The notes beneath the pieces were generated by a model. The model was not told the DNA's origin. It saw only the letters and a list, made by a program, of their open reading frames with translations, and did no database searches. A DNA stretch of 38,478 nt from Bacteroidales bacterium (GTDB taxonomy: Bacteria; Bacteroidota; Bacteroidia; Bacteroidales; JAADJA01). Below are positions 21,023-35,661 of the stretch, piece after piece; positions within the stretch are counted from its first letter, which is position 1; every line of letters begins with the position of its first letter. A program made the translations under genes and the position numbers. The stretch is taken from assembly GCA_016933115.1 (NCBI GenBank), contig JAFGBL010000012.1, positions 1-38,478 on the forward strand, in the 5' to 3' direction.

Positions 21023-22516
21023 ATGAGAAGAGATATGCACCTTGCTTTTTCGAGCCTTATTTTTTTACTATTATTAATATTCCTCGCTGTTTCGTGTCAA
21101 AATCAGAAAGTGAAACCGCCGGCACCCTATGGCGCCACACCATCAAAAGCCCAACTTCATTGGCACCAATTGGAATATTATGGATTTCTACATTTCGGAT
21201 TGAATACATTTACCGGACAGGAATGGGGATATGGAAATGTTTCTCCTGAAGAATTCAATCCAACAAATTTCGATTCAGATCAGATTGTTGGTACAGCCAA
21301 AAAAGCTGGAATGAAAGGTCTGATCCTAACCTGCAAGCACCATGACGGTTTTTGCCTTTGGCCGTCAGAATACACTGATTATTCAGTGAAAAGCAGTCCC
21401 TGGAAGGATGGCAAAGGGGATGTAGTAAAAGAGATTTCAGAAGCTTGTGCAAAATACGGATTGAAATTCGGCGTATATCTTTCGCCCTGGGACAGGAATC
21501 ATCCGGATTACGGCAAACCCGCTTATATCGAATACTACAGGAATCAACTCAGGGAATTACTGACAAATTACGGTCCTATTTTCGAAGTGTGGTTCGATGG
21601 TGCCAACGGCGGAACCGGCTGGTATGGCGGAGCTGATGAAGAGCGGAAGATTGACCGGTCTATTTACTACGATTGGGATAATACCTGGAAGATCGTCCGT
21701 GAATTGCAACCAGATGCCGTTATTTTCAGTGATGTTGGACCCGATATCCGATGGGTCGGAAACGAAAACGGTTTTGCCGGTGATCCCTGCTGGGCAACCT
21801 ATACACCTCAAACCTCGGACAATAGTCAGCCTGCTCCCGGAAATGTAAATTATCAGCTTGGTCAGAACGGAACTCAAAACGGAAAGTTTTGGATGCCTGC
21901 CGAATGTGATGTGTCCATCCGTCCGGGCTGGTTTTATCATGCCGCCCAGGATTCACTGGTGAAATCACCGGAAGTTTTGTTGGATCTCTATTTTAAATCA
22001 GTCGGAAGAGGAGCTTCTTTTTTACTCAATATTCCGCCGAATAAACGGGGCCGGATAACACAAGATGATTCCCTCTCATTGATAGGGTTCAAAAAAATGA
22101 GGGATGAAATCTTTAAAACCAATCTGGCCGAAAAAGCAAAACTGACTGCTTCTAACATTCGTGGGGATTCCGATGAATTTTTACCAATAAACCTGATTGA
22201 TGGAAATTCGGAAACCTTTTGGACAACAAGTGATGTCATTCATACACCTGAACTAATAATGGATTTTGAAGAGGTTATTGTTTTTAATGTGATCAGCCTG
22301 CAGGAATACCTACCGCTTGGTCAACGGATCGAAAAATGGACGTTTGATATTTGGAAAGACGATCATTGGAAAGAGGTCACTGATGGTGTTTCCATAGGAA
22401 GTAAACGGCTTTGGAAAGGTGAATTACAATCGACCCATAAAATCAGGTTGAGAATAGTTGAATCACCGGTTTGCCCGACGATTAGTGAGTTTGGAGTATA
22501 TTTAGCTAAAGATTAA
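21023..22516 (+). CDS. GH29 alpha-L-fucosidase lipoprotein with C-terminal discoidin-like domain
   Basis: The 497-residue protein has a lipoprotein signal with lipobox LAVSC. The GH29 barrel covers about 40-365: YGFLHFGLNTFTGQEWG, LTCKHHDGFCLWPS, and VWFDGANGG, in which D192 is the expected nucleophile. The WFDGANG form suggests the more linkage-restricted GH29-B group (alpha-1,3/1,4-fucosides), which is an inference. Residues about 370-497 look like an F5/8 type C (CBM32-like) module: LIDGNSETFWTT, then LQEYLPLGQRIEKWTFDIW. It would release fucose from glycans at the cell surface or in the periplasm. It is followed 111 bases later by a GH3 gene and then a second GH29 gene, all on the same strand. 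Confidence 0.9.
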   Translation: MRRDMHLAFSSLIFLLLLIFLAVSCQNQKVKPPAPYGATPSKAQLHWHQLEYYGFLHFGLNTFTGQEWGYGNVSPEEFNPTNFDSDQIVGTAKKAGMKGLILTCKHHDGFCLWPSEYTDYSVKSSPWKDGKGDVVKEISEACAKYGLKFGVYLSPWDRNHPDYGKPAYIEYYRNQLRELLTNYGPIFEVWFDGANGGTGWYGGADEERKIDRSIYYDWDNTWKIVRELQPDAVIFSDVGPDIRWVGNENGFAGDPCWATYTPQTSDNSQPAPGNVNYQLGQNGTQNGKFWMPAECDVSIRPGWFYHAAQDSLVKSPEVLLDLYFKSVGRGASFLLNIPPNKRGRITQDDSLSLIGFKKMRDEIFKTNLAEKAKLTASNIRGDSDEFLPINLIDGNSETFWTTSDVIHTPELIMDFEEVIVFNVISLQEYLPLGQRIEKWTFDIWKDDHWKEVTDGVSIGSKRLWKGELQSTHKIRLRIVESPVCPTISEFGVYLAKD

Positions 22517-22533
22517 AATCTGTTAATGATTTC

Positions 22534-22580
22534 GACCTTTCAGGTTTACCTGCTTTATCCTCTTTTCGACCTGAAAGATC
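22534..22580. repeat. Inverted-repeat element between glycosidase genes
   Basis: GACCTTTCAGGT (22534-22545) and ACCTGAAAGATC (22569-22580) are complementary at 11 of 12 positions with a 23-base loop. There is no T tract after it, so it looks more like a dispersed intergenic hairpin than a simple terminator. It lies in the 111-base gap between the first GH29 and GH3 genes. Confidence 0.6.
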
Positions 22581-22627
22581 TGAATAAAAATTTCCTACCT
22601 TTATTTCCAATTTTACAGTTATAAAAT

Positions 22628-24784
22628 ATGAGAAGAATTTTACCCATTATCCTTTTGATCCTTATTTTCTCCTGCCAGGAAAAACAAAAACAGGAAACAA
22701 GCTACAATTATCCTTTTCAAAATCCGAAATTATTAATGGATGATCGGATTGATGATCTTATTTCCCGGCTCACTATTGAAGAAAAAACATCATTGATGTT
22801 ATACAACAGTGCGGCCATCGAAAGACTTGGCATTCCGCAATACAACTGGTGGAACGAATGTTTGCACGGAGTGGGAAGGGCAGGTAATGCCACCGTTTTT
22901 CCACAAGCTATAGGTATGGCGGCAACATTTGATGATGACCTTATTTTCAGAGTATCTTCGGCTATTTCGGATGAAGCCAGGGCCAAACATCACGCGGCTG
23001 TTCGTATGGGAAACCGTGAACAGTATGTCGGACTTTCCTTCTGGACACCCAATATCAATATTTTTCGTGATCCCCGCTGGGGCCGGGGGCAGGAGACTTA
23101 CGGGGAAGATCCCTATCTGACTTCCCGGATGGGAATTGCATTTGTGAAAGGATTACAGGGAGATGATCCGAAATACCTCAAGGCTTCGGCATGCGCCAAA
23201 CATTATGTAGTGCACAGCGGTCCCGAAAAAATCCGGCATCATTTCAATGCGGTTCCTTCCGAAAGGGATTTCAGGGAATCTTACCTCCCGGGCTTTGAGG
23301 CATTGGTTAAAGAAGGCCATGTTGAAGCCGTGATGTGTGCCTATAACCGGACTTACGACAAACCCTGCTGTGGCAGCGAATATTTATTGAATGATATTTT
23401 GAGGAAGGAATGGGATTTCAAAGGGCATATCGTTTCGGACTGCTGGGCGCTGGATGATTTCTGGCTCAGGCATAAAGTGGTGGATACGCAGGTTGAAGCG
23501 GCTGCCATGGCGGCCAAATCGGGTGTGAATTTGAATTGCGGGTACATTTATAAATATCTCCCGGAAGCGGTTGAAAAAGGGCTGATTACCGAAGCTACCA
23601 TTGATTCCATTCTCAGGCCATTGCTGAAAACCCGTTTTAAACTCGGGTTGTTTGATCCCAATGAACTGGTTTCTTTTTCAAATATCCCACCCGATATGAT
23701 AAACAACGAGGAAAATCAACAACTGGCTTATGAAGTTGCCAAAAAGTCGATCGTTCTGCTGAAAAATGAAAACCATATTTTGCCTTTGGATAAAAAATCC
23801 ACCAAAACCATTTTAGTTGCCGGCCCTACCGCCATGGATGTCAACTGCCTGGTGGGCAACTATACAGGATATTCAGGACATTTGACAACTATTTTGGAGG
23901 GGATGGTGGATCGTGCAGATCCGGGCGCTGTGGTGGAGTATAACCAGGGTGTTTTGTTTCACAATGATTCTTTGTTCCAGGGATTCTGGCAGGCAGGAAG
24001 AGCGGATGCAGTGGTTCTTTGCCTGGGCATCAATTCACTTTTCGAAGGAGAAGAGGGGGATGCGATGATGAATCCACATGGCGGTGACAGGGTTAATATC
24101 GGATTACCTCCAAACCAGGTTGAATATGTAAAACGCATCCGCGAAAAAATGAAGGAAAAACCCTTGATCGTTGTGATCACAGGAGGAAGTGCTATGGCCA
24201 TTCCGGAGATCGATTCCATAGCCGATGCGGTTTTGTTTGCCTGGTATCCGGGAGAAGCGGGTGGATTTGCTGTTGCCGATATTATTTTCGGAGATGTCAA
24301 TCCATCAGGACGGTTACCTGTGACCTTTTATAAATCGGTCAATGACCTGCCTGATTTTGAGGATTACAGCATGGAGAGACGTACCTATCGTTACTTTGAA
24401 GGAGAACCGCTTTATCCCTTTGGATTTGGATTGAGTTATTCCAGCTTTGAATATTCGGATGCCTCTGTTTCTAAAAACGGTGATAAAATTGAGCTTCAGA
24501 TCACGATTAAAAATTCAGTTGATTTTGATGGCGATGAGGTGGTTCAGGTGTATGCCCGAAAAGTCGAACCTCAATATTGGCGACCGGTTAAACAAATGAT
24601 CGGATTCAAACGGCTCTCATTGAAATCAGGCGAATCAAAATCTGTAACTATCACGGTTGATCCGAAACAATTACAATACTGGGATGTGGAAACGAAACAA
24701 TACCGGGTTGAGCCCGGTGAATATGAGTTGATGGTGGGAGGATCGTCTAATGATTTGCCATTAAATTTAAATATAATATTGTGA
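22628..24784 (+). CDS. GH3 glycosidase lipoprotein, beta-xylosidase/beta-glucosidase-like
   Basis: The 718-residue protein has a very short lipoprotein signal (lipobox LIFSC, Cys16). It has the three-part GH3 layout: N-terminal barrel with WWNECLHGVGRAG, RDPRWGRGQETYGEDP and KHYVVHSG, then nucleophile D271 in HIVSDCWALDDF; a C-terminal alpha/beta sandwich (VLLKNENHILPL, GEAGG, GRLPVTFY, YPFGFGLSY); and a fibronectin-III-like end (DEVVQVYARK to the C-terminus). The VSDCW and WNECLHG motifs place it in the xylosidase-like branch of GH3 rather than the NagZ branch; the true sugar (xylose, glucose or other) is not determined. A TACCTTTA box (22596-22603) lies 24 bases before the ATG, so it may have its own promoter besides read-through from the fucosidase gene. 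Confidence 0.92.
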   Translation: MRRILPIILLILIFSCQEKQKQETSYNYPFQNPKLLMDDRIDDLISRLTIEEKTSLMLYNSAAIERLGIPQYNWWNECLHGVGRAGNATVFPQAIGMAATFDDDLIFRVSSAISDEARAKHHAAVRMGNREQYVGLSFWTPNINIFRDPRWGRGQETYGEDPYLTSRMGIAFVKGLQGDDPKYLKASACAKHYVVHSGPEKIRHHFNAVPSERDFRESYLPGFEALVKEGHVEAVMCAYNRTYDKPCCGSEYLLNDILRKEWDFKGHIVSDCWALDDFWLRHKVVDTQVEAAAMAAKSGVNLNCGYIYKYLPEAVEKGLITEATIDSILRPLLKTRFKLGLFDPNELVSFSNIPPDMINNEENQQLAYEVAKKSIVLLKNENHILPLDKKSTKTILVAGPTAMDVNCLVGNYTGYSGHLTTILEGMVDRADPGAVVEYNQGVLFHNDSLFQGFWQAGRADAVVLCLGINSLFEGEEGDAMMNPHGGDRVNIGLPPNQVEYVKRIREKMKEKPLIVVITGGSAMAIPEIDSIADAVLFAWYPGEAGGFAVADIIFGDVNPSGRLPVTFYKSVNDLPDFEDYSMERRTYRYFEGEPLYPFGFGLSYSSFEYSDASVSKNGDKIELQITIKNSVDFDGDEVVQVYARKVEPQYWRPVKQMIGFKRLSLKSGESKSVTITVDPKQLQYWDVETKQYRVEPGEYELMVGGSSNDLPLNLNIIL

Positions 24785-24795
24785 TACCATATATG

Positions 24796-24826
24796 CACGA
24801 ATAAATCAGAAATTAGTGCATTCGTG
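24796..24826. repeat. Short hairpin element before the second fucosidase gene
   Basis: CACGAAT (24796-24802) and ATTCGTG (24820-24826) are perfectly complementary with a 17-base loop containing AATTAGTG. The AATTAGTG-ATTCGTGGCAAAA wording resembles a common Bacteroidota intergenic repeat. It fills the 61-base gap between the GH3 and second GH29 genes. Confidence 0.45.
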
Positions 24827-24845
24827 GCAAAATAAAAGTAAATAT

Positions 24846-26318
24846 ATGAGACTAACTATTTTATTTTTGTTGTTACTCATTGGGATTGTTCAATCATGGT
24901 CTCAGCATGAACCGCAAACTTACATCCCCGATCCTGATCCCCTTGTTCAGCAGAAACTCGAACAATGGCAGAACCTGAAATTCGGTTTGCTGATGCACTG
25001 GGGAACATACAGCCAATGGGGCATTGTGGAATCCTGGTCGATTTGCCCGGAAGATTATGGCTGGTGCGAGCGGAAAAAAGGCAATAGCCCTGAAAATTAT
25101 TTTGAATATGTGAAAGAATACGAGAATTTGAAATCTACCTTTAACCCAACTCGGTTTGATCCTGAAAGATGGGCCAAAGCAGCTGCCAACGCCGGGATGA
25201 AATACGTGATCTTCACCACCAAACACCACGACGGCTATTGTATGTTCGACACAAAATACACCGATTACAAAATCACCGATGTTGGTTGCCCTTTCCATTC
25301 AAATCCCAAAGCCAATGTCACCAAAGAGATTTTCGATGCCGTTCGTGCCGAAGGAATGTGGGTGGGTCCTTATTTCTCTAAACCCGACTGGCACAACAAC
25401 GATTACTGGTATCCATATTTTTCCCCTATGGACCGTAATGTGAATTACGATCCGGCTGTTTATCCCGAAAAATGGGAAAACTTTGTTCAATTCACGCAAA
25501 ACCAGATCATGGAGTTAATGACGGATTATGGGCCGGTTGATATACTCTGGCTCGACGGCGGCTGGGTTCGTAAACACACCAAAGAGGAGATCGATAATTA
25601 TTACCGGGATACTTCAAATTATTCAGCCTCCGGATTTATGAAAACCAAACTCATCAACCAGGATATCCACATGGATGAACTTGTTAAGAAAGCCCGTGAA
25701 AAGCAACCGGGACTCATCGTTGTTGACCGCGCAGTTCCCGGGAAAAACCAGAATTACCTGACACCTGAGAACCGGGTTCCTGAAGAAGCTTTGCCTTATC
25801 CCTGGGAATCGTGTATCATCGCCGGCGGAAGTTGGTCGTGGGTTCCGGATGCCACCTACATGAGCGGGCGGGAAGCCATTCATCTGCTGGTAGATATTGT
25901 CGCAAAAGGAGGAAATCTGCTTCTGAACATAGCACCAGGCCCCGAAGGGCAATGGCATGAAGAAGCCTATAAAATGCTGGAAGAAATCGGAGGCTGGATG
26001 AAGGTGAATAGTGAAGCAATTTACGATACACGGGCATTTTATCCTTTCAAGGAAGGCAGGGTCTGCTATACTAAAAGTAAAGCAGAATCCATTTATGCAA
26101 TTTATTTAGTTGAAGAAAATGAAGATGTATTTTCCGAAGAACTTGCCTTGCCGGGTCTTCATGATGAATCAATTAAAAATATTGAAATTCTTGGCTTTGG
26201 GGCCAAAATTAATTGGAAGGTCACCGATGAAAATCTGGTAATTCAAATACCTTTGGCATTAAGAAAAAAACTTGTTGAAAATTATGCAGTAACGTTTAAA
26301 ATTTCCCTGAATGAATAA
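24846..26318 (+). CDS. GH29 alpha-L-fucosidase (second copy)
   Basis: The start is taken at ATG 24846 (490 residues), which gives a clean type I signal peptide (MRLTILFLLLLIGIVQSWSQ); the longer frame from 24816 puts ten polar residues before it. The GH29 barrel is complete: LKFGLLMHWGTYSQWG, FTTKHHDGYCMFDTKYTDY, then WLDGGWV with D237 as the expected nucleophile, and NLLLNIAPGPEGQW near residue 360. A beta-sandwich domain follows (about 395-490). WLDGGW is typical of the broader GH29 group, unlike the WFDGANG of the first copy, so the two enzymes probably cut different fucose linkages. Unlike its neighbours it is not a lipoprotein and should be periplasmic. Related sugars other than fucose cannot be excluded. 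Confidence 0.88.
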   Translation: MRLTILFLLLLIGIVQSWSQHEPQTYIPDPDPLVQQKLEQWQNLKFGLLMHWGTYSQWGIVESWSICPEDYGWCERKKGNSPENYFEYVKEYENLKSTFNPTRFDPERWAKAAANAGMKYVIFTTKHHDGYCMFDTKYTDYKITDVGCPFHSNPKANVTKEIFDAVRAEGMWVGPYFSKPDWHNNDYWYPYFSPMDRNVNYDPAVYPEKWENFVQFTQNQIMELMTDYGPVDILWLDGGWVRKHTKEEIDNYYRDTSNYSASGFMKTKLINQDIHMDELVKKAREKQPGLIVVDRAVPGKNQNYLTPENRVPEEALPYPWESCIIAGGSWSWVPDATYMSGREAIHLLVDIVAKGGNLLLNIAPGPEGQWHEEAYKMLEEIGGWMKVNSEAIYDTRAFYPFKEGRVCYTKSKAESIYAIYLVEENEDVFSEELALPGLHDESIKNIEILGFGAKINWKVTDENLVIQIPLALRKKLVENYAVTFKISLNE

Positions 26319-26430: not shown

Positions 26431-28020
26431 ATGAATAAACTGCTTTTCAATTTCCTTTTCATTCTTTTTTCAGGAATCATATTGATTAGTTCATGTAAAC
26501 ACAAACCTGAAGAAATTGCCGGACCGAATAATCCGACCATTGAACCACCCATTGATACCCTGGTTTGTGATTCATCGGATGTAACTTACCAGGGCATTGT
26601 TTATCCAATCCTGGAGACGTATTGCATCAGTTGTCATAGTGGTCCAACTCCTTCGGGTGCCCTGGATTTTTCAGATTACAGGGATGTCGCTTTTGTTGCT
26701 CAGAGCGGGCAGTTGGCGGGAGCCATAAAGCATTTGGATGGCTTTGAACCGATGCCTCAGGACGGAAATAAATTATCCAATTGTGAGATTTCCCTCATCG
26801 AAAAGTGGATCAATGATACTACTTTCGTGATGCCACCGGATATAACTGACTGTGATACATCTTTTGTGACTTACCCCGAAACTATATATCCCATTTTACA
26901 GGCAAACTGTATTTCCTGTCATGGTCCCCCTCTTCCTGAAGCAGGTTTGGATTTCACTGATTACAGCGATGTGGCATATGTTGCTGAAAATGGGACTTTG
27001 CTTGGTGCCATAAAACATTTATCGGGTTTTGAACCCATGCCACAGAATGCTCCGCCATTGACCGATTGTGAAATAACCCTTATCGAAAAATGGATCAAAG
27101 ACACTATATTCATTATTCCTCCTGATACTACAATATGCGATTCATCGAATGTGACTTATCCCGGAACGGTATTTCCGATTTTGCAGCAAAATTGTATTAC
27201 CTGTCATAGCCAGCCCATCCCGGCGGGCGGACTCGATTTCAATGATTATGAAAATGTCGCATTTGTTGCACAGAGTGGACAATTGATGGGAGCAATCAGG
27301 CAATTGCCTCCCTACACTCCTATGCCAGAAAATGGACCTCCTTTAACCGATTGTGAAATTGGCCTCATCCAGAAATGGATCAATGATACTACTTTCAATA
27401 CCGGGAGCGGAGGAATTTCCTGTGATCCCGATACGATATATTTTCAGAATGATGTTCTTCCATTGCTTCAATCAAGTTGTGGCATTGCAGGATGCCACGA
27501 TCAGCAATCGGCTCAGGATGGAGTGGTACTCACCAGTTATTTATCGGTGATGCAAACTGCCGGTGTAGTACCGTTTGATCCACAAGAGAGTGAAATTTAT
27601 GAGGTAATCACCGAAAATGACCCTGACGACCGTATGCCTCCACCGCCTGCAGCTCCACTCAACAGTGATCAAATTCAAATAATATATAAATGGATCGCAC
27701 AGGGAGCCCTCAATAATTATTGTGATCAGGAAGATTGTGATTCGGTTAATGTCATATTTTCTGAAACCGTTTTTCCTATTATTCAAAACAAATGTTACGG
27801 TTGTCATAGCGGTTCCAATCCCAGCGGAGGCATCAGCCTGACCAATTATAACCAGGTGAAGGCTCAGGCAAGTATTCCTGTAGGTTCCCCGGGAAGTTTG
27901 TTGGGGGCAATAACCTGGGCAAACGGGAATACTCCGATGCCGCAAAACGGCAATCAGCTTTCAGAATGCAACATTGCCCAGATAAGGAATTGGATAGATG
28001 ACGGGATGCCTGACAATTAA
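26431..28020 (+). CDS. Five-domain c-type cytochrome lipoprotein
   Basis: The 529-residue protein has a lipoprotein signal (lipobox LISSC, Cys22). Five tandem c-type cytochrome domains of about 95-105 residues follow, with heme-binding motifs CISCH (65-69), CISCH (160-164), CITCH (255-259), CGIAGCH (350-356, a CX4CH variant) and CYGCH (455-459). Each ends in a PMP or RMP turn (such as FEPMPQDG), whose Met is the likely distal ligand, and a Cys plus IEKWI helix. The first three repeats are exactly 95 residues apart and very alike, pointing to internal duplication. It should be a membrane-anchored electron carrier, exported and matured by a cytochrome c biogenesis system not in this window. It is followed by a one-domain relative and a barrel protein, suggesting one module. 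Its partner and electron donor are unknown. Confidence 0.85.
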   Translation: MNKLLFNFLFILFSGIILISSCKHKPEEIAGPNNPTIEPPIDTLVCDSSDVTYQGIVYPILETYCISCHSGPTPSGALDFSDYRDVAFVAQSGQLAGAIKHLDGFEPMPQDGNKLSNCEISLIEKWINDTTFVMPPDITDCDTSFVTYPETIYPILQANCISCHGPPLPEAGLDFTDYSDVAYVAENGTLLGAIKHLSGFEPMPQNAPPLTDCEITLIEKWIKDTIFIIPPDTTICDSSNVTYPGTVFPILQQNCITCHSQPIPAGGLDFNDYENVAFVAQSGQLMGAIRQLPPYTPMPENGPPLTDCEIGLIQKWINDTTFNTGSGGISCDPDTIYFQNDVLPLLQSSCGIAGCHDQQSAQDGVVLTSYLSVMQTAGVVPFDPQESEIYEVITENDPDDRMPPPPAAPLNSDQIQIIYKWIAQGALNNYCDQEDCDSVNVIFSETVFPIIQNKCYGCHSGSNPSGGISLTNYNQVKAQASIPVGSPGSLLGAITWANGNTPMPQNGNQLSECNIAQIRNWIDDGMPDN

Positions 28021-28053
28021 TAGAGGGAGAAGCCGGATTTAAGTATTGCCTGC

Positions 28054-28083
28054 CTGGAAGCAAATCAATTTTAAGCTTTCCAG
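28054..28083 (+). other. Small hairpin between the two cytochrome genes
   Basis: CTGGAAGC (28054-28061) and GCTTTCCAG (28075-28083) pair with one bulged base and a 13-base loop, in the 180-base gap after the five-domain cytochrome gene. There is no T tract. It could reduce or process read-through, but the evidence is slight. Confidence 0.25.
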
Positions 28084-28200
28084 TGCTGAAGGACAAGGCA
28101 AAACAGATTTGGCAAGAATTTGTTTAATGTAGGAAAATCAGGTAAAAGTTGTGTTCCTGAAATAAAGAAATATCATTTAACAGTTGAAAAAAAATATTGA

Positions 28201-28578
28201 ATGAAAACAATAAGAATTATCAGATTATGGATATTTATTACCGGTTTTGCGGTTTTGCAATCTTGTTATTATGACTCGGAAGAGGAACTTTACCCATCAG
28301 AAAGCAATTGCGATTTAAGCAATGTAACCTATTCAGGTACGATTACAGCAATTCTGAGTCAGAATTGTTATTCCTGTCATTCCAGTAATTTTCCTCAAGG
28401 GAATGTTGTACTGGATAATTACGATGATTTGAAGGTGGTAATTGATAACGGGCGATTTTGGGGGGCTGTCAACCATGAAAGCGGCTTTACGCCCATGCCT
28501 CAAAATCTTCCCAAACTTCCTCAATGTGAACTAGATAAAATTAAAACCTGGTTGGATAACGGAGCTATGAATAATTAA
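28201..28578 (+). CDS. Single-domain c-type cytochrome lipoprotein
   Basis: The 125-residue protein has a lipoprotein signal (AVLQSC) and one domain clearly related to those of the preceding gene: a CDLSNVTYSGTITAILSQ lead-in, CYSCH as the heme motif, a middle LDNYDDLKVVIDNGRFWGAV, then GFTPMPQN with the likely Met ligand and LDKIKTWLDNGAMNN at the end. It probably arose from the same ancestor as the five-domain protein. It begins 180 bases after that gene and lies only 11 bases before the DUF5777 gene, so the last two are surely co-transcribed. It should be a small electron carrier anchored in a membrane facing the periplasm. Confidence 0.85.
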   Translation: MKTIRIIRLWIFITGFAVLQSCYYDSEEELYPSESNCDLSNVTYSGTITAILSQNCYSCHSSNFPQGNVVLDNYDDLKVVIDNGRFWGAVNHESGFTPMPQNLPKLPQCELDKIKTWLDNGAMNN

Positions 28579-28589
28579 ATAATGAACAA

Positions 28590-29492
28590 ATGAAAAAATT
28601 GACATTAATATTTTCGGTTTTTCTTGGTTTAAATTTTTCACTGCCTGCACAGGATGACCTCCTGGATTTATTAGGAAATGATGAACAACCGGTTGAATAT
28701 GCCTATGCTACGTTCAAAACATCAAGGATCGTCAATTCACATACGGTTGAACAGCCTGCTGAGGGAGTCCTGTTATTTCTGATCCAGCACCGGTTTGGTA
28801 GATTAAATACCGGAGCATATGAAATGTTTGGCCTCGATCAGGCGACCATCAGGTTGGGCCTGGAGTACGGAATAACAGGCCGGTTAAGTGTAGGTGTAGG
28901 GAGAAGTTCGTATGAAAAAACATTTGATGGGTTTGTAAAATATAAAATTCTGAGGCAAAGTACCGGAGCACGAAAAATGCCTGTAACCATGTCGTATTAC
29001 GGTAGTGTGAATTTAAACTCCCTCAAATGGGAAGATATGGGTGTGGAGGACCGTAAAAACTATTTTAGTTCGCGTGTGAGCTATACCCAGATGTTGCTTG
29101 TTGCAAGGAAAATCAACAGCAGCATCTCGCTGCAACTGATGCCGGCTTATACGCATAAAAACCTGGTTCCAACAACGGAAGATGCCAACGATATTTTTTC
29201 TATAGGTATTGGGGGTCGGGTTAAAATTACCCACAGGATGTCAATAAATGCAGAGTACTTTTATACCCCGGAAAACCAGATTTCATATGAATTTCAGCAA
29301 CCATTATCCATTGGGATCGATATCGAGACCGGCGGACATGTTTTCCAGTTGCATTTTTCCAACAGCCAGGCCTTTTTCGACCGTGGATATCTCACCGAAA
29401 CAACAGGTAAATGGAGTAAAGGTGATATTTACTTTGGCTTCAATATTTCAAGGGTATTTACCCTTAAAAAACCACCGGAGTTTAAAGAGTAA
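28590..29492 (+). CDS. DUF5777 family outer-membrane-barrel-like protein
   Basis: The 300-residue protein has a type I signal peptide (residues 1-20, cut near LPAQ) and alternating amphipathic strands typical of an outer-membrane beta-barrel: ATIRLGLEYGITGRLSVGVG, VTMSYYGSVNLNSLKWED, SISLQLMPAYTHK, MSINAEYFYTPEN and IYFGFNISRVFTL. The motif HTVEQPAEGVLLFLIQHRFG near the start fits the DUF5777 pattern. Its function is not established. Being 11 bases after a cytochrome gene suggests that the barrel and the heme lipoproteins work together, possibly as a conduit or docking site in the outer membrane. That role is inference. Confidence 0.75.
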   Translation: MKKLTLIFSVFLGLNFSLPAQDDLLDLLGNDEQPVEYAYATFKTSRIVNSHTVEQPAEGVLLFLIQHRFGRLNTGAYEMFGLDQATIRLGLEYGITGRLSVGVGRSSYEKTFDGFVKYKILRQSTGARKMPVTMSYYGSVNLNSLKWEDMGVEDRKNYFSSRVSYTQMLLVARKINSSISLQLMPAYTHKNLVPTTEDANDIFSIGIGGRVKITHRMSINAEYFYTPENQISYEFQQPLSIGIDIETGGHVFQLHFSNSQAFFDRGYLTETTGKWSKGDIYFGFNISRVFTLKKPPEFKE

Positions 29493-30286: not shown

Positions 30287-30838
30287 TCAACCCTTGTATT
30301 TTTCTAATTTGACTTCCACCGTTACCTCAATTTCTTCGGCAATATTGTTGATTACCGTTTTGGGGATCCTGATGTCGAAATCGGCCGGTTTCAGTATAAA
30401 TTTTGACACTCCGGTAACACGATCCCCCGCAACTTCAATAACTCCATTTTCCATAATGCTTTTTGTAACACCATGGATGGTGAGGTCACCCTCCACAGTT
30501 ACATTATATTTCCCATTTTGCGTAAACTTCACATCCTGAATATTGCTGATCTTACCGATGAAGGAAGCGCTCGGGAATTTATGTGATTCCACGTAATTTT
30601 CGTTAAAATGTTCCTGCATCAGTGCTTTTTCAAATGCAAACGATTTCATTAAGACCTTAAAGACAAAATCACCCGATTGTGAGTCCAGGGCAGAATTTAC
30701 CTGCCGGTTGTGGGCCTCAATGGTCTCAACAGGGGTTTCGGAGTAAAATTTAATATACCCGTTTTTTGTTATATATTTTTGAGCAAAAGCAGGGCTGACC
30801 AGAATCAATACCGCAATAACAATTAATATTCTATTCAT
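30287..30838 (-). CDS. YceI family protein
   Basis: The 183-residue protein has a signal peptide (residues 1-19, cut after AFA) and a lipocalin-like YceI barrel: ITKNGYIKFYSETPVETIEA, FKVLMKSFAFEKALMQEHF, ENYVESHKFPSASFIGKI, GDLTIHGVTKSI and FDIRIPKTVINNIAEEIEV. YceI proteins bind isoprenoid-type lipids in the periplasm and are often near electron-transport genes. The gene follows the OB-fold gene after 17 bases. It resembles the second YceI gene at 35095-35661, which is clearly a diverged paralogue. Confidence 0.9.
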   Translation of the reverse strand: MNRILIVIAVLILVSPAFAQKYITKNGYIKFYSETPVETIEAHNRQVNSALDSQSGDFVFKVLMKSFAFEKALMQEHFNENYVESHKFPSASFIGKISNIQDVKFTQNGKYNVTVEGDLTIHGVTKSIMENGVIEVAGDRVTGVSKFILKPADFDIRIPKTVINNIAEEIEVTVEVKLEKYKG

Positions 30839-30855: not shown

Positions 30856-31287
30856 TTATTCTATTAGTGAACAATATTCCATAATGATATCGGTATCATT
30901 AAAACCGGTGCAGAACCCTTTGATGGTTACTTCATTTCCGGCCAGATCCTGAATTTTCGACGCCTGACCTTCAAGCATTGAGCACCTGATACCCTCATCT
31001 CCAAACATGCCCTCTTCAATCGCAAATACGGCAATAGTCAGGGAGTCGGGAGTTTCAATTTTACTTAATGTTCCTGTTACCTGTAGTACTTTACCAGTGT
31101 ATTTTTCTGAAGCTTCATGCCTGGATATTTTATATGAATTATATACTTCCATTGCCGGAAGTATAAAATCAGGGGTGGCTTTTTCAAAATCTATGTGGGG
31201 TTTGTTATAGACAAATTTATATGCCAGGACAGCTCCAATAATTCCCAGAATTAAAATTGCCGTTGTTATTAATATCCACTTTTTCAT
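30856..31287 (-). CDS. Membrane-anchored OB-fold (tRNA_anti-like) protein
   Basis: The 143-residue protein has one N-terminal membrane helix (about 4-24, ILITTAILILGIIGAVLAY) and a periplasmic-facing domain with the OB-fold pattern of the tRNA_anti-like family: YTGKVLQVTGTLSKIE, LTIAVFAIEEGMFGDEGIRCSM and GNEVTIKGFCTGFNDTDIIM. A Cys pair (in IRCSM and GFCTG) is typical. The function is not known, and nucleic acid binding should not be assumed because the domain is outside the cytoplasm. It is the first gene of the operon with YceI and DUF2892. Confidence 0.8.
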   Translation of the reverse strand: MKKWILITTAILILGIIGAVLAYKFVYNKPHIDFEKATPDFILPAMEVYNSYKISRHEASEKYTGKVLQVTGTLSKIETPDSLTIAVFAIEEGMFGDEGIRCSMLEGQASKIQDLAGNEVTIKGFCTGFNDTDIIMEYCSLIE

Positions 31288-31391: not shown

Positions 31392-32156
31392 TTACTCAGA
31401 TTGGCCTGCCAGCCATTTTTTAAAACTGCCCGAACGGTCGGTGGATGCAATCGTATCCTGTTCGCATGGTGGATGAAGGATGATCTTAACCCTCGATTTA
31501 CTATAAGTATACATTTCCCTGATTGACTTGTAGCTGATAATAAATTGCCGGTTAATCCGGTAAAATTTCAGCGGGTCGAGGATAGGCTCCAGGTTGTCAA
31601 GGCTTACATCGAGAGGATACTGTAGGTTTTCAAACGTTTTAAAGAATATATTTCCTTCTGATGTAAAAAAGTAAGCAATATCATCAACGTCAATGGCTTT
31701 GATCTTTTGGCCATAACGTACAACAAACCTTTTTTGGAAACTTTCTTTATTCAGGATTTTAGCCAGCTCGGTATAATCAAAATCGACTTGTCGTTTGCTT
31801 TTATGAAATTCGCTGTATTTGGCAAGTGCTTCAATCAGTTCCTCTTTTTTTACAGGTTTTAACAGGTAATCGATGCTGTTTACCCTAAAAGCCTGCAACG
31901 CATATTGATCGAATGCAGTTATAAAAATAACCGGTACCTTGATTTCAACTTCCTTGAAAATTTCAAAAGCCGAACCATCAGCTAATTGGATATCCTGAAA
32001 AACAAGGTCGGGGTTTGGATTCTTTTTATACCAATCAATACTGGAACTCACACTATCCAGCGTATTTAGAATTTCAATTTCAGGCTCGATCTCTGTGAGC
32101 AATTTTATTAACCTGTCGGCTGTTGCCTGTTCGTCTTCAATTATGAGTACTTTCAT
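31392..32156 (-). CDS. LytTR-type response regulator
   Basis: The 254-residue protein has an N-terminal receiver domain: the acidic pair in IIEDEQ, phosphoacceptor D55 in LVFQDIQLADG, T80 in FITAFD and K100 in LLKPVK. A LytTR DNA-binding domain follows (about 140-250: RFVVRYGQKIKAIDVDDIAYFFTSEGNI, YPLDVSLDNLEPILDPLKFYRINRQFII, YTYSKSRVKIILHPP). It should be phosphorylated by the kinase encoded immediately upstream (five bases between the stop and this ATG) and bind direct-repeat promoters. Targets cannot be read here, but the linked YceI operons are candidates. The start is ATG 32156. Confidence 0.93.
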   Translation of the reverse strand: MKVLIIEDEQATADRLIKLLTEIEPEIEILNTLDSVSSSIDWYKKNPNPDLVFQDIQLADGSAFEIFKEVEIKVPVIFITAFDQYALQAFRVNSIDYLLKPVKKEELIEALAKYSEFHKSKRQVDFDYTELAKILNKESFQKRFVVRYGQKIKAIDVDDIAYFFTSEGNIFFKTFENLQYPLDVSLDNLEPILDPLKFYRINRQFIISYKSIREMYTYSKSRVKIILHPPCEQDTIASTDRSGSFKKWLAGQSE

Positions 32157-32161
32157 GGTTT

Positions 32162-35095
32162 CTACATCAAAACAGGAAGTCCTACTTTAAATATTTTATC
32201 CGTTTTAATTACTTTAACTTCTTTTTCAGTGAGTAAATGGTAACGTTCTATAATGTTACGGATCCCGATTCCTGTTGATTTTACAACTTCTTTTTTTGCT
32301 TGCAGGTTGTTTTCGACGTAAAGGTACTTTATTTTTTCATCGAAATAAACATGAACCGACAACGGTTTATCTTTAGAAACTACATTGTGCTTAATCGCAT
32401 TTTCAAGCAGTAATTGCAGTGTCAGCGGTGGAATTTTAAGTTGATCGGAATTGTTTACTTCTTCAATATTCAGAATCAGGTTCTCATTGTACCTTTTTTG
32501 TTGCACTTTAAAATAATTCCGAACAATCAACAATTCTTCCGAAAGTGAAATCACATCCTTATCCTTATATTCAAGAACCGTCCTGAACAGGTTGGAGAGT
32601 TCTTCCACATACTCAATGGCAACATCCTTGTTCTGATCGATCAGTGCAATGAGGGTGCTGAAACTATTGAATAAAAAATGGGGATTGATCTGGCTCTTGA
32701 GGTTTTCAAACTGGAAAATTATTCGTTCCCTGAGGATTTCTTCTTTCTTTTTCAGCCTTTTTTCACGCCCTTTGATGAATGTAAAAATCAATAAACCAAT
32801 CAGAATGATGATGATTATCCAGAACCACCACAGCCACCAAAATGGTTGTTTAATTTCAAAGGAGTAGGATGCGGTATCGGAATTTTTAAAGTTTTCATAC
32901 AAACCGGTTTTTGCATGAAATGTGTATTTCCCGGGTTTAAGATTGGAATATATGACATTTTTATTTTTCGTCCTGATCCAATCCAGGTCGTGTCCTTCCA
33001 GCATGATGAGGTATTCCAGCTGTTCGGGGTACTGATACCACAGGCCGGTATAATTGAAAACCAGGTGGTTTTGATGGTACGAAAATTCTTGTATTTGCCG
33101 GTGATCGATTTTTTCAAAAAAAACCAAAACATCAATCAACCTGGGCTGAGGTCGTTTCCATTGTAAATGATTGGAGGGGCTATATTTCACAATTCCTTTT
33201 GCTGTTCCTATCCAAATGTTTCCTTGATGATCTGTTGTAATGGCGTTCAAATCGGGCTCAAGGTTAGTAAGCCCTGCATTTCCTTCATAGTGAATGATGT
33301 CAAGGGTTTCTGTATTTAAAACGTCAATTCCTTCATTGTAAACAATGACCAGCTCATGGTTATCATCGGCTAATATTCCTGAAAACGAAAGGTTTTTGTG
33401 TTCATCATCAGCAATAATTTTCTGAATAGTATTCCCGTCAAACCTGAATAAGCCTTCTTTGGCTGAGTTCATCCAAACATTCCCCGAATTATCCAATGCG
33501 ATCGAATAAATCACTTTTTGATTGAATGCCGAATCATCTGTCAAAGGCATAAATTTTCCCTTGTCGAAATAACAAACTCCGTTTCCATCGGTTGCAAGCC
33601 AAATGCGGTTCAAACTATCGGTTTGAAGGTGGTAAATATAACTGTTGATCAAGCCTTCATCACGCGAATAATTGGTAAATTCCGGAGTAAATTGGATGTT
33701 TTTAAGCCTTGAATCGAGTGCACATTTCGACACACCCCCAAGGGTGGCAAACCAAATATCATATTGTGTAGAATTAATAGAGAGGACATTGCTGTTGATC
33801 AAACCGTTTTCTTCCGAAATCATTGTTTGATCATCAATTTGCGGATCCAGTCTCAACAATCCGCGGCCAAAGGTTCCTGCCCAGATCATCCCGTATGGAT
33901 CAAGGTACAGGCTCATGATCTTGTGTAAATTGATATCGATTTCCGGTAGAAAAAGCCTGAGCTGATCTCCATTCGCAGGTTTGTTAATGGCAAACTTATG
34001 GATACCGATATCATTGGCAAACCATAAATTATTATCGTCATCACATACCATCGCATGAATATTGGAAATCGGGTAACCATCAAGTGTTGATAAAAACCTG
34101 ATTTTATTTCCAAACGACAGGTAAATATTTGATGCCGACATTAACCATACATTGCCTTCATCATCCTGAATCATTTTCTTGATGCGGTACGAGCCATTTT
34201 CAAAAGTTGTTTTCAGTGCCTGAAGGGTACTGTCATTCGTGTGGTATTCAATTAATCCTGCACCGTCTGTGGCCACCCAAACATTTTCATCCATGGGCAA
34301 AATTGCCTCCACCGATCCGTAGGTCCAACTATTTTCTTGATTTGGCAGATAAAATTCACCGGAATCAGGATTGTATCGACAAAACCCTTTGTCAAACATT
34401 CCGATCCAGATATTTCCGCTATCATCCAACTTTAGGCTTTTCACAATGAAATCAGGTAGTCCGGCCTCCACCGACAGATGCTTCGTCCCGATCTGACCAT
34501 TTGATATCCCGGAAATATTGATGCCGTTATCAGTGCCCGACCAAACATTACCCTGTTTGTCCAACATCAAACAATAAATAAAATCATCCGATAAACCTGA
34601 ATCCAAATTTAAATGGATTATTTCGTCGTTGCGGATGATGAATATTCCAGCGCCATAAGTTCCGGCCCAAATCGATTGATCTGTGCCTTCAACCATTGAT
34701 GTAATTTTATTTGCAGGACCGGCACTGTCCCATTCAGGCTCGTAAAATTTAAATCCGTCATATGAAATCAAATTCCCGTTTTCAAATCCGAACCAAAGGT
34801 TATCCTTTGAATCTTCAAAAATCAGGGTTGAGCTTTTGGTGGATAATTCAACTGGCAGATCAAGCTCAGTAAAATCAGAACCATCGAATCGAAAGATTCC
34901 TCTTTGCGTTCCTATCCAGATAAATCCTTTTTTATCCTGGAAAATGGTGTTGAACTGCCCCCTGTCAAAATCGTTTTCATCAGTAATTTTCCTGAAATAA
35001 GGCTCCTGGCCCGAAGCCGGGGAAAAAATTACCAATAAAAATATGGGCAAAAGCAATATTTTAGAAGTAAATATATCGAATGTGCAACAGGCCAT
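32162..35095 (-). CDS. Two-component sensor: beta-propeller/Y_Y_Y domain/LytS-like histidine kinase
   Basis: The 977-residue protein has a signal-like N-terminal helix, then many WIGTQRG-, WFGFENG- and WAGTYGAG-type two-component-regulator propeller repeats (about 25-640) forming a large periplasmic sensor. A Y_Y_Y domain follows (about 660-745, YLIMLEGHDLDWI, LKPGKYTFHAKTG), then one membrane helix (about 751-775, WWFWIIIIILIGLLIF), a LytS-like kinase domain (H806 in INPHFLFNS) and an ATP-binding domain (LLLENAIKHN, GIGIRNI). It probably senses a periplasmic ligand and phosphorylates the adjacent LytTR regulator. ATG 35095 overlaps the TGA stop of the YceI gene (TGATG), so translation is likely coupled; a TTG one codon earlier is less likely. 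The ligand is unknown. Confidence 0.93.
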   Translation of the reverse strand: MACCTFDIFTSKILLLPIFLLVIFSPASGQEPYFRKITDENDFDRGQFNTIFQDKKGFIWIGTQRGIFRFDGSDFTELDLPVELSTKSSTLIFEDSKDNLWFGFENGNLISYDGFKFYEPEWDSAGPANKITSMVEGTDQSIWAGTYGAGIFIIRNDEIIHLNLDSGLSDDFIYCLMLDKQGNVWSGTDNGINISGISNGQIGTKHLSVEAGLPDFIVKSLKLDDSGNIWIGMFDKGFCRYNPDSGEFYLPNQENSWTYGSVEAILPMDENVWVATDGAGLIEYHTNDSTLQALKTTFENGSYRIKKMIQDDEGNVWLMSASNIYLSFGNKIRFLSTLDGYPISNIHAMVCDDDNNLWFANDIGIHKFAINKPANGDQLRLFLPEIDINLHKIMSLYLDPYGMIWAGTFGRGLLRLDPQIDDQTMISEENGLINSNVLSINSTQYDIWFATLGGVSKCALDSRLKNIQFTPEFTNYSRDEGLINSYIYHLQTDSLNRIWLATDGNGVCYFDKGKFMPLTDDSAFNQKVIYSIALDNSGNVWMNSAKEGLFRFDGNTIQKIIADDEHKNLSFSGILADDNHELVIVYNEGIDVLNTETLDIIHYEGNAGLTNLEPDLNAITTDHQGNIWIGTAKGIVKYSPSNHLQWKRPQPRLIDVLVFFEKIDHRQIQEFSYHQNHLVFNYTGLWYQYPEQLEYLIMLEGHDLDWIRTKNKNVIYSNLKPGKYTFHAKTGLYENFKNSDTASYSFEIKQPFWWLWWFWIIIIILIGLLIFTFIKGREKRLKKKEEILRERIIFQFENLKSQINPHFLFNSFSTLIALIDQNKDVAIEYVEELSNLFRTVLEYKDKDVISLSEELLIVRNYFKVQQKRYNENLILNIEEVNNSDQLKIPPLTLQLLLENAIKHNVVSKDKPLSVHVYFDEKIKYLYVENNLQAKKEVVKSTGIGIRNIIERYHLLTEKEVKVIKTDKIFKVGLPVLM

Positions 35096-35661
35096 CAATT
35101 TTCTGTTTCAATTTTTTGAAAGTCAGCAGTCATAGAAACCTTGATTTCCTCAGCTATTTTTTGATAAACCAACTTAGGAATGCTAATATTATGGTCTTCC
35201 AGCATAACTGTAAAATCGGATGTGGCGGTAAATTCATTCTTTCCTATTTTAAGCATACAATTGATGATCCTCTCCTTTTTCACACCATGGATATTCAGTT
35301 CCCCTTTGGCTCTCACTTTAACTTCTCCTGGTTGGCTGAAGTCGACTTTTTCGATGATTTTTCCTGAAAATGCAGCCTTTGGGTACTTTTCGGTTTCCAT
35401 ATAATTTTCATAAAAATGTTCCTGCTGTAATGGAGAATTAAAACCTTCCAGTGTTTTGATGTCCATCTGAAATGCAAAATTCTGGTCGTCTGCATTGACA
35501 ATTCCTTTCAATTCATCCGACTCGGCAGTGATAAATTCAAGCGGCGCATCGGAAACAAATTTAACATGACCCGATTCGGTCCGATACAGGTTTTTAATCT
35601 GTTCCTGTCCCATTAAAAACATGGAATTAAATAATAGTAAGAAGAATATTGTATTTTTCAC
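35095..35661 (-). CDS. YceI family protein, first gene of the sensor operon
   Basis: The 188-residue protein has a signal peptide (residues 1-18, ending LMGQ) and a YceI barrel: RTESGHVKFVSDAPLEFITA, FAFQMDIKTLEGFNSPLQQEHF, ENYMETEKYPKAAFSGKI, GELNIHGVKKERI and ISIPKLVYQKIAEEIKVSM. It is expected to bind a lipid or isoprenoid-like ligand in the periplasm. Its stop shares bases with the start of the large sensor kinase, so the two are made together; this makes it a possible ligand-presenting partner of the sensor, which is inference. It is a paralogue of the YceI protein at 30287-30838. Confidence 0.9.
   Translation of the reverse strand: MKNTIFFLLLFNSMFLMGQEQIKNLYRTESGHVKFVSDAPLEFITAESDELKGIVNADDQNFAFQMDIKTLEGFNSPLQQEHFYENYMETEKYPKAAFSGKIIEKVDFSQPGEVKVRAKGELNIHGVKKERIINCMLKIGKNEFTATSDFTVMLEDHNISIPKLVYQKIAEEIKVSMTADFQKIETEN

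Follow-up and report, generated by a model that had tools for sequence, protein, structure and literature searches.

A DUF5777 barrel gene beside cytochrome c lipoproteins in Bacteroidota: a candidate outer-membrane electron-transfer module

Genes at the DUF5777 locus

Three adjacent genes on the forward strand of contig JAFGBL010000012.1 from a Bacteroidales bacterium were taken as the starting point of the analysis; the whole stretch of 38,478 nucleotides is referred to here as the window. The first gene (C5, 26431..28020) encodes a five-domain c-type cytochrome lipoprotein of 529 amino acids, the second (C1, 28201..28578) a single-domain class-I cytochrome c lipoprotein of 125 amino acids, and the third (28590..29492) a protein of 300 amino acids belonging to the family DUF5777 (PF19089), predicted to form a 12-stranded beta-barrel, bearing an N-terminal signal by reading and presumably located in the outer membrane. 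The open reading frame (ORF) calls agree with the original prediction, which had named a five-heme lipoprotein, a one-heme relative and DUF5777 at these positions, with a gap of 11 bases between the C1 stop and the DUF5777 gene. The three genes of that prediction stand; two partners on the minus strand had been overlooked, namely a YceI-family lipocalin (30287..30838; PF04264, E-value (E) 2e-14) with an N-terminal signal by reading, and a PF12869 (tRNA_anti-like) OB-fold protein (30856..31287; PF12869, E 3e-13) with an N-terminal hydrophobic anchor by reading. Interpretation of this gene set as a probable outer-membrane electron-transfer module is well supported by its neighbourhood across the phylum. 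Signal sequences and lipobox cysteines were called by eye, without a signal-peptide program; the ORF finder prefers the longest frames and start positions may be off.

Analysis of C5 revealed heme sites beginning at residues 65, 160, 255, 350 and 455, of which four are CXXCH and the fourth, at residue 350, is CX4CH. PMP or RMP follows each heme site after 42-51 residues, and its methionine is likely to be the distal heme ligand. C5 matches the Pfam families PSCyt1 (1.1e-23) and Cytochrome_CBB3 (2e-18), and a profile of the C1 family built without C5 matches all five of its domains (E 9.2e-13 to 2.6e-30). C1 alone scores under the Pfam cut-offs; it contains a CYYDxEExLYP motif after the lipid cysteine, one CXXCH and a distal Met-Pro. 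Alignment of 56 relatives of C1 (alignment A4) found C22, C56, C59, H60, M99, P100 and W117 to be invariant. Conservation at the N-terminus of this alignment is partly circular because its rows were selected by a loose N-terminal pattern along with one heme motif; M99, P100 and W117 lie outside the selection. CXXCH, the distal methionine and the lipobox that characterize class-I c-type cytochrome lipoproteins are all present in the window proteins, and heme binding is predicted for them.

Recurrent neighbours of DUF5777

DUF5777 was identified in 22 of 41 near-relative genomes and in 153 of 395 phylum genomes (the window's own genome is counted in both), and in none of 14 control genomes. Among the best 80 of at least 585 relatives, 79 are titled Bacteroidota and one 'uncultured bacterium'. 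A total of 221 sequences (loci and the window) were gathered, of which 215 gave a DUF5777 ORF and six were dropped, leaving 191 distinct loci; distinctness refers to the last 200 residues only, and same-genus relatives remain. The loci are best-scoring matches, drawn from the best 80 of at least 585, from the near-relative and phylum searches and from 80 hand-chosen regions that are mostly one per genome and non-random; weak and unlisted matches lie outside the sample. According to their length, 184 of the 191 loci were used for the upstream count, 140 for gene orders, 121 for the comparison of near and far genes and 180 for the tree.

A small cytochrome lipoprotein cluster was present at 162 of the 191 loci. 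Of its 234 members, 228 are no further than 3 kilobases (kb) from DUF5777, and 224 of these 228 are on the same strand. Comparison of near genes (within 3.5 kb) with far genes (at least 4.5 kb away) in the 121 loci of at least 13 kb, which are not independent of one another, gave 145/822 against 1/861 for the cytochromes (Fisher p 5e-47), 99/822 against 13/861 for YceI (p 2e-19) and 48/822 against 1/861 for the OB-fold protein (p 2e-14). A cytochrome neighbour occurs at 103 of these 121 long loci, and a small redox carrier of any kind at 109 when in-house profiles and motif rules are applied. Cytochrome neighbours, on whose presence beside most DUF5777 homologues the original prediction depended, are thus the common state, and at the level of gene order the association of DUF5777 with the cytochromes is real. 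Across the 395 genomes, both families occur in 134, DUF5777 only in 19, the cytochrome only in 86 and neither in 156; this table was compiled by hand from two profile-search outputs, with the best 6 candidates per genome scored in the DUF5777 search and the best 11 with the cytochrome profile.

YceI is the commonest second partner, found at 145 or more of the 191 loci, and the OB-fold protein was found at 82 or more. The commonest order among 140 loci is cytochrome, YceI, DUF5777 (27 loci), followed by two-motif cytochrome, monoheme cytochrome, OB-fold protein, YceI, DUF5777 (16 loci). The window is a rearranged and longer version of this recurrent gene set and the only one with five heme motifs among the 140 loci. 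The gene set supplies named partners for DUF5777, a family found in 153 of 395 genomes.

Many members of the cytochrome family have CX4CH, so counts of CXXCH only are too low; no heme motif was found in three of the 234 members of the cluster. A lipobox was assigned by an in-house rule to 194 of the 234 cytochromes, and in these the fractions of acidic residues at +4, +6 and +7 after the lipid cysteine are 0.69, 0.43 and 0.49, against 0.16, 0.24 and 0.14 in 191 other lipobox ORFs. The published Bacteroidota lipoprotein export signal is given as K-(D/E)2 or Q-A-(D/E)2, or SDDDD/SDDFE, at +2 to +6 (PMC5080379, in excerpt), and the pattern in the cytochromes, where the acidic fraction at +5 is 0.04, departs from the signal as it appears in that excerpt. 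Eight same-genus loci (L228-L235) contain a long lipoprotein with 5, 4, 4, 5, 4, 5, 4 and 3 heme motifs. In a genome with no DUF5777 match, the cytochrome profile matched one 652-amino-acid frame five times (G252:C87:101024-102310); multi-domain expansion of the cytochromes is therefore a process that happens outside the DUF5777 module too.

The window YceI protein matched a single entry, 3hpe (E 0.035), when solved structures were searched with the single sequence only. In most of the YceI structures solved so far the ligand is an isoprenoid, for example ubiquinone-8 or an octaprenyl compound (PMC9113575, in excerpt). The window protein may carry menaquinone. In 80 aligned PF12869 OB-fold proteins, three cysteines are conserved, two of them in a KGxCxG...C pattern; possible roles for these are heme binding, metal binding or a disulphide bond. 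In one same-genus relative (G010), the gene between those for the OB-fold protein and YceI (L232:2013-2825) encodes a protein that has a single CXXCH and ends in a type IX secretion sorting tail; it gave no match to a cytochrome family and its CXXCH may be due to chance.

Loci without the cytochrome provide a functional clue. Among the 29 of 191 loci lacking the cytochrome cluster, a Rieske-type protein is encoded within 3.5 kb at eight, and a plastocyanin-like lipoprotein, identified by motif, at one (L218). PF00355 was confirmed in both Rieske proteins tested (L144 and L150), of which L150 has a cytochrome too. On a FastTree phylogeny of 180 DUF5777 sequences, 152 are accompanied by a cytochrome, eight by a Rieske protein, two by both and 18 by neither, and the cytochrome/Rieske state requires three changes. 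Cupredoxin-like proteins were found at two long loci, one Pfam-confirmed (L152) and one by motif only (L218); the L152 protein accompanies a cytochrome, and a cupredoxin without a cytochrome occurs only in L218. The motif rules for carriers are rough: the cupredoxin rule caught a cytochrome (L142), and the Rieske rule missed L144 and gave unconfirmed matches such as L097. The L152 cupredoxin has PF00127 together with PF18962, a type IX secretion sorting tail, and some carriers, such as this one, look surface-bound from their sequence. Methionine-ligated cytochrome c, Rieske clusters and cupredoxins all perform one-electron transfer at fairly high potential. The occasional exchange of a cytochrome for a Rieske-type protein is informative for DUF5777, a family of unknown function.

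A second form of the DUF5777 neighbourhood was found in the window's own genome (G000:C204, locus L240, 2959-8892). The genes there encode, in order, a 6-heme protein with a lipobox-like cysteine, a monoheme lipoprotein, DUF5777, a 7-heme protein, a protein with four transmembrane segments and a 6-heme protein with four transmembrane segments. The 7-heme protein (L002) matches cytochrome c3/c7 families. In a relative (L237), the counterpart of the four-segment protein is a PF01292 cytochrome b, by which the L240 protein is taken as cytochrome-b-like; the last 6-heme protein there is of NapC/NirT type, and a Crp-family regulator lies alongside. This run of genes looks like a respiratory set, and a description of such a set was not found in the literature searched. 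In other relatives, DUF5777 occurs with an iron-sulphur protein that has a twin-arginine-translocation-like signal (Fer4 families in L026), followed by a protein with ten transmembrane segments (L241, L246, L247) that presumably resembles NrfD.

Sequences of this second form were grouped as clade B and those of the window's form as clade A by simple sequence patterns; 27 of the 191 loci fall in neither and several clade B loci are short. A cytochrome is present at 17 of 17 clade B loci and a protein of at least six hemes lies nearby at 10 of 17, against 0 of 147 clade A loci within 3.5 kb. YceI shows the reverse distribution, with 1 of 17 clade B loci against 120 of 147 clade A loci within 3.5 kb. 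The best argument that DUF5777 belongs to electron transfer is the repeated occurrence of this one barrel family next to electron-transfer genes of two different kinds.

Predicted structure and known systems

The window protein matches DUF5777 over the whole profile (1-247 of 247) at 6.2e-96, with 320.9 bits against a cut-off of 23.1. AlphaFold2, supplied with an alignment of 124 sequences, predicted a closed barrel of 12 amphipathic strands with a predicted local distance difference test (pLDDT) of 94.4 and a predicted template modelling score (pTM) of 0.86, so that a non-barrel structure, which would have spoken against the original prediction, was not obtained. The two faces of the strands differ by 1.1 to 4.5 Kyte-Doolittle units, a range without a shuffled control. 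The less hydrophobic face, which is the inner one by strand parity, is predicted to be polar and charged and includes conserved R88, D113, K117, K174 and R210. In a search with Foldseek, the nearest solved folds include NanC, FapF and OmpG at template modelling (TM) scores of about 0.4-0.5 by query; the best is NanC (2wjq; E 3.5e-7, TM 0.48 by query and 0.67 by target). This likeness is generic at the level of the models. NanC, the closest solved fold and a member of the NanC/KdgM porins, is a barrel that we take to have 12 strands; DUF5777 differs from these porins in having no sequence match in the solved-structure search and in the redox partners that recur beside it. In that search the single DUF5777 sequence gave no match and its profile gave only a designed barrel (E 0.4). 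The 50 best fold matches listed do not include MtrB.

A co-fold of DUF5777 with the adjacent monoheme lipoprotein from a same-genus relative (L010, 63 rows) formed both folds, the C1-type partner appearing as a helical domain, with a pTM of 0.69. Going by the model, 12 strands should leave too little room inside the barrel for a folded cytochrome domain. Naturally fused DUF5777 and heme domains, which would have demonstrated contact between the two, were also looked for, and CXXCH or CX4CH occurs in none of the 191 DUF5777 ORFs.

Comparison with known systems revealed partial likeness to several of them. Cyc2 consists of a monoheme domain fused to a barrel modelled with 16 strands and has an AXPXFAR motif before CXXCH; it resembles the present system in combining one heme with a mid-sized outer-membrane barrel and no multiheme wire (both from PMC8406198, in excerpt). 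In contrast to Cyc2, the heme here is on a lipoprotein encoded by its own gene, 12 strands rather than 16 are predicted for the barrel, and YceI and OB-fold partners recur; AXPXFAR is absent from the window C1 by reading. No Cyc2-named family appeared among the Pfam and NCBIfam matches, libraries whose content was not checked for a Cyc2 model. In MtrCAB, a decaheme protein is inserted into a porin of 26 strands (PMC8406198, PMC7198977 and PMC4245776, each in excerpt). The DUF5777 loci resemble MtrCAB and other porin-cytochrome systems in that a barrel gene adjoins c-type cytochrome genes, to which clade B adds multiheme proteins and a cytochrome b; they differ in having 12 strands against 26 and, in the window, a five-heme lipoprotein built from class-I domains. 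The idea that DUF5777 forms a sheath like MtrB was rejected on the 12 predicted strands, and no protein of at least six hemes lies within 3.5 kb of the 147 clade A loci. The original prediction had already noted that the families here are not of the Mtr type, in agreement with the small barrel and the class-I lipoproteins. In the BcnA-LcoA system, the YceI lipocalin BcnA acts with the cytochrome b561 LcoA to limit lipid peroxidation (PMC9113575, in excerpt). It is likewise a case of a YceI lipocalin tied by gene order to a heme protein, and it differs in that the partner is an inner-membrane cytochrome b561; the excerpt of PMC9113575 mentions no barrel or c-type lipoprotein. Neither the name DUF5777 nor a description of the gene set was found in the literature searched, outside of which lie preprints and most subscription-journal papers.

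A candidate electron-transfer module and its alternatives

Taken together, our analysis suggests an outer-membrane redox module in which DUF5777 provides the scaffold for one-electron carriers and is fed by YceI in its common form, a reading to which we give about an even chance. Electrons would arrive in the periplasm, and the 12-stranded barrel would serve small one-electron carriers as a scaffold for docking or gating; these carriers would be class-I monoheme cytochrome c lipoproteins or, in some species, Rieske-type or cupredoxin-like proteins. In the common form, represented by the window, YceI is the likely periplasmic partner, being a member of an isoprenoid-quinone-binding family, and the OB-fold protein with its membrane anchor might assist it. 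In the second form, represented by the other copy in the same genome, electrons may come from the cytochrome-b-like protein and the multiheme set. The second lipoprotein of the window has been extended to five heme domains. The original prediction had proposed a conduit resembling the porin-cytochrome complexes. Its electron-transfer module is retained on the gene association and the barrel prediction; its passage of electrons through the barrel is unsupported, given 12 strands where Cyc2 has 16 and MtrB 26 and a predicted inner face that is polar and charged. The best reading is of a widespread module that is a small-barrel, lipoprotein-based take on the porin-cytochrome idea, mostly coupled to YceI.

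Several observations weigh against this module. YceI alone accompanies DUF5777 at 17 of 140 loci, none of the three partners is present at 3 of 140, and 3 of the 121 long loci lack any partner tested. A cytochrome-profile match is lacking in 19 of the 153 DUF5777 genomes, some of which may be misses, and the cytochrome family occurs without a DUF5777 match in 86 of 395, so neither family strictly requires the other. YceI was not found at 46 of the 191 loci and the OB-fold protein at 109, presence being a lower bound with short loci and simple clustering. Co-transcription is not implied in the window, since YceI and the OB-fold gene lie on the strand opposite DUF5777. Neither a Rieske protein nor a cupredoxin was found at 20 of the 29 cytochrome-less loci, some of them short. 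The clade split is not clean, as L247 of clade B has YceI and the OB-fold gene about 3.6-5 kb downstream, and in alignment A6 several clade B lipoproteins have no methionine aligned with the distal one of the window cytochromes. The modelled barrel is small, and the co-fold, performed for one pair without an unrelated-pair control, placed no confident interface. Surface display of the cytochromes is suggested by an acidic run that is unlike the published signals.

Other roles for the gene set were considered less probable. DUF5777 may export or anchor redox lipoproteins at the cell surface and itself stand outside electron flow, an explanation that we regard as unlikely. The closest folds include FapF, whose barrel transports polypeptides, a CYYD-type motif after the cysteine occurs near 56 of the 147 clade A loci, and the acidic enrichment at +4, +6 and +7 recalls the Bacteroidota surface signal (PMC5080379, in excerpt). 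Such export leaves YceI unexplained and sits poorly with the 86 of 395 genomes having the cytochrome family and no DUF5777 match; since part of the conservation evidence is circular, namely the strong N-terminal conservation in alignment A4, its probability was lowered. We also know of no requirement for a dedicated barrel among the many surface lipoproteins of Bacteroidota, which counts against it as well. There is a similarly small chance of a redox-coupled channel, a split counterpart of Cyc2, in which a metal ion or another small substrate would enter the barrel and undergo oxidation or reduction by the one heme sitting at the barrel entrance. A monoheme cytochrome with a mid-sized barrel is the plan of Cyc2 (PMC8406198, in excerpt), the conserved positions R88, D113, K117 and R210 are placed on the inner face by parity in the model, and M99 in 56 of 56 rows of A4, together with the Rieske and cupredoxin-like substitutes, suggests high-potential carriers. 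Against a channel of this kind stand the separate heme lipoprotein, the 12 rather than 16 strands and the want of a Cyc2-named match in Pfam and NCBIfam, and the occurrence of DUF5777 in 153 of 395 genomes appears broader than iron oxidation would suggest.

Envelope protection, in which YceI-bound quinol and high-potential carriers would repair oxidised lipids or scavenge radicals as proposed for BcnA-LcoA, is in our view improbable to the same degree. It would account for YceI as the commonest second partner (145 of 191 loci) and accords with the mostly isoprenoid-bound solved YceI proteins and the limiting of lipid peroxidation by BcnA-LcoA (PMC9113575, in excerpt); however, the latter as described there lacks both an outer-membrane barrel and a c-type lipoprotein. 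The runs of genes in clade B look respiratory, containing as they do cytochrome b, NapC-type and multiheme proteins as well as a Crp-family regulator (L237), and YceI lies within 3.5 kb at just one of 17 clade B loci, with one further away (L247). That the neighbours are together by chance or through general clustering of lipoproteins is highly improbable: the position of the window YceI and OB-fold genes on the other strand would fit it, whereas the cytochromes (145/822 near, 1/861 far) and the recurring gene orders do not, and chance was ruled out by this near/far control as far as sequence allows.

A broader version of the electron-transfer module, which we hold only tentatively and consider doubtful, is a phylum-wide means by which electrons would cross the outer membrane with no need of a multiheme wire. 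Quinone-loaded YceI would pass electrons to a 12-stranded barrel whose two rims carry single-heme, Rieske or cupredoxin carriers, with extension at the surface by multi-domain cytochrome lipoproteins and with two electron sources for the one barrel family. Bacteroidota are seen mostly as degraders of polymers. If the proposal is true, they would possess their own family of envelope electron-transfer devices.

The remaining genes around the module are of other kinds. A small YgaP-like transmembrane protein (PF11127; 30024..30266, minus strand) is encoded between DUF5777 and YceI. Just upstream of C5, two alpha-L-fucosidase-family enzymes are arranged around a GH3 glycosidase (21023..26318, plus strand), probably a separate glycan locus. 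Beside the OB-fold gene, Pfam matches identified a LytTR response regulator and a Reg_prop histidine kinase (31392..35098, minus strand). Among the 191 DUF5777 loci, 37 have a response-regulator cluster and 17 a histidine-kinase cluster, mostly distant from DUF5777. Past the histidine kinase lies a second YceI-family gene (35095..35661, minus strand); YceI genes about 6.5-7 kb away from DUF5777 were found in some relatives also.

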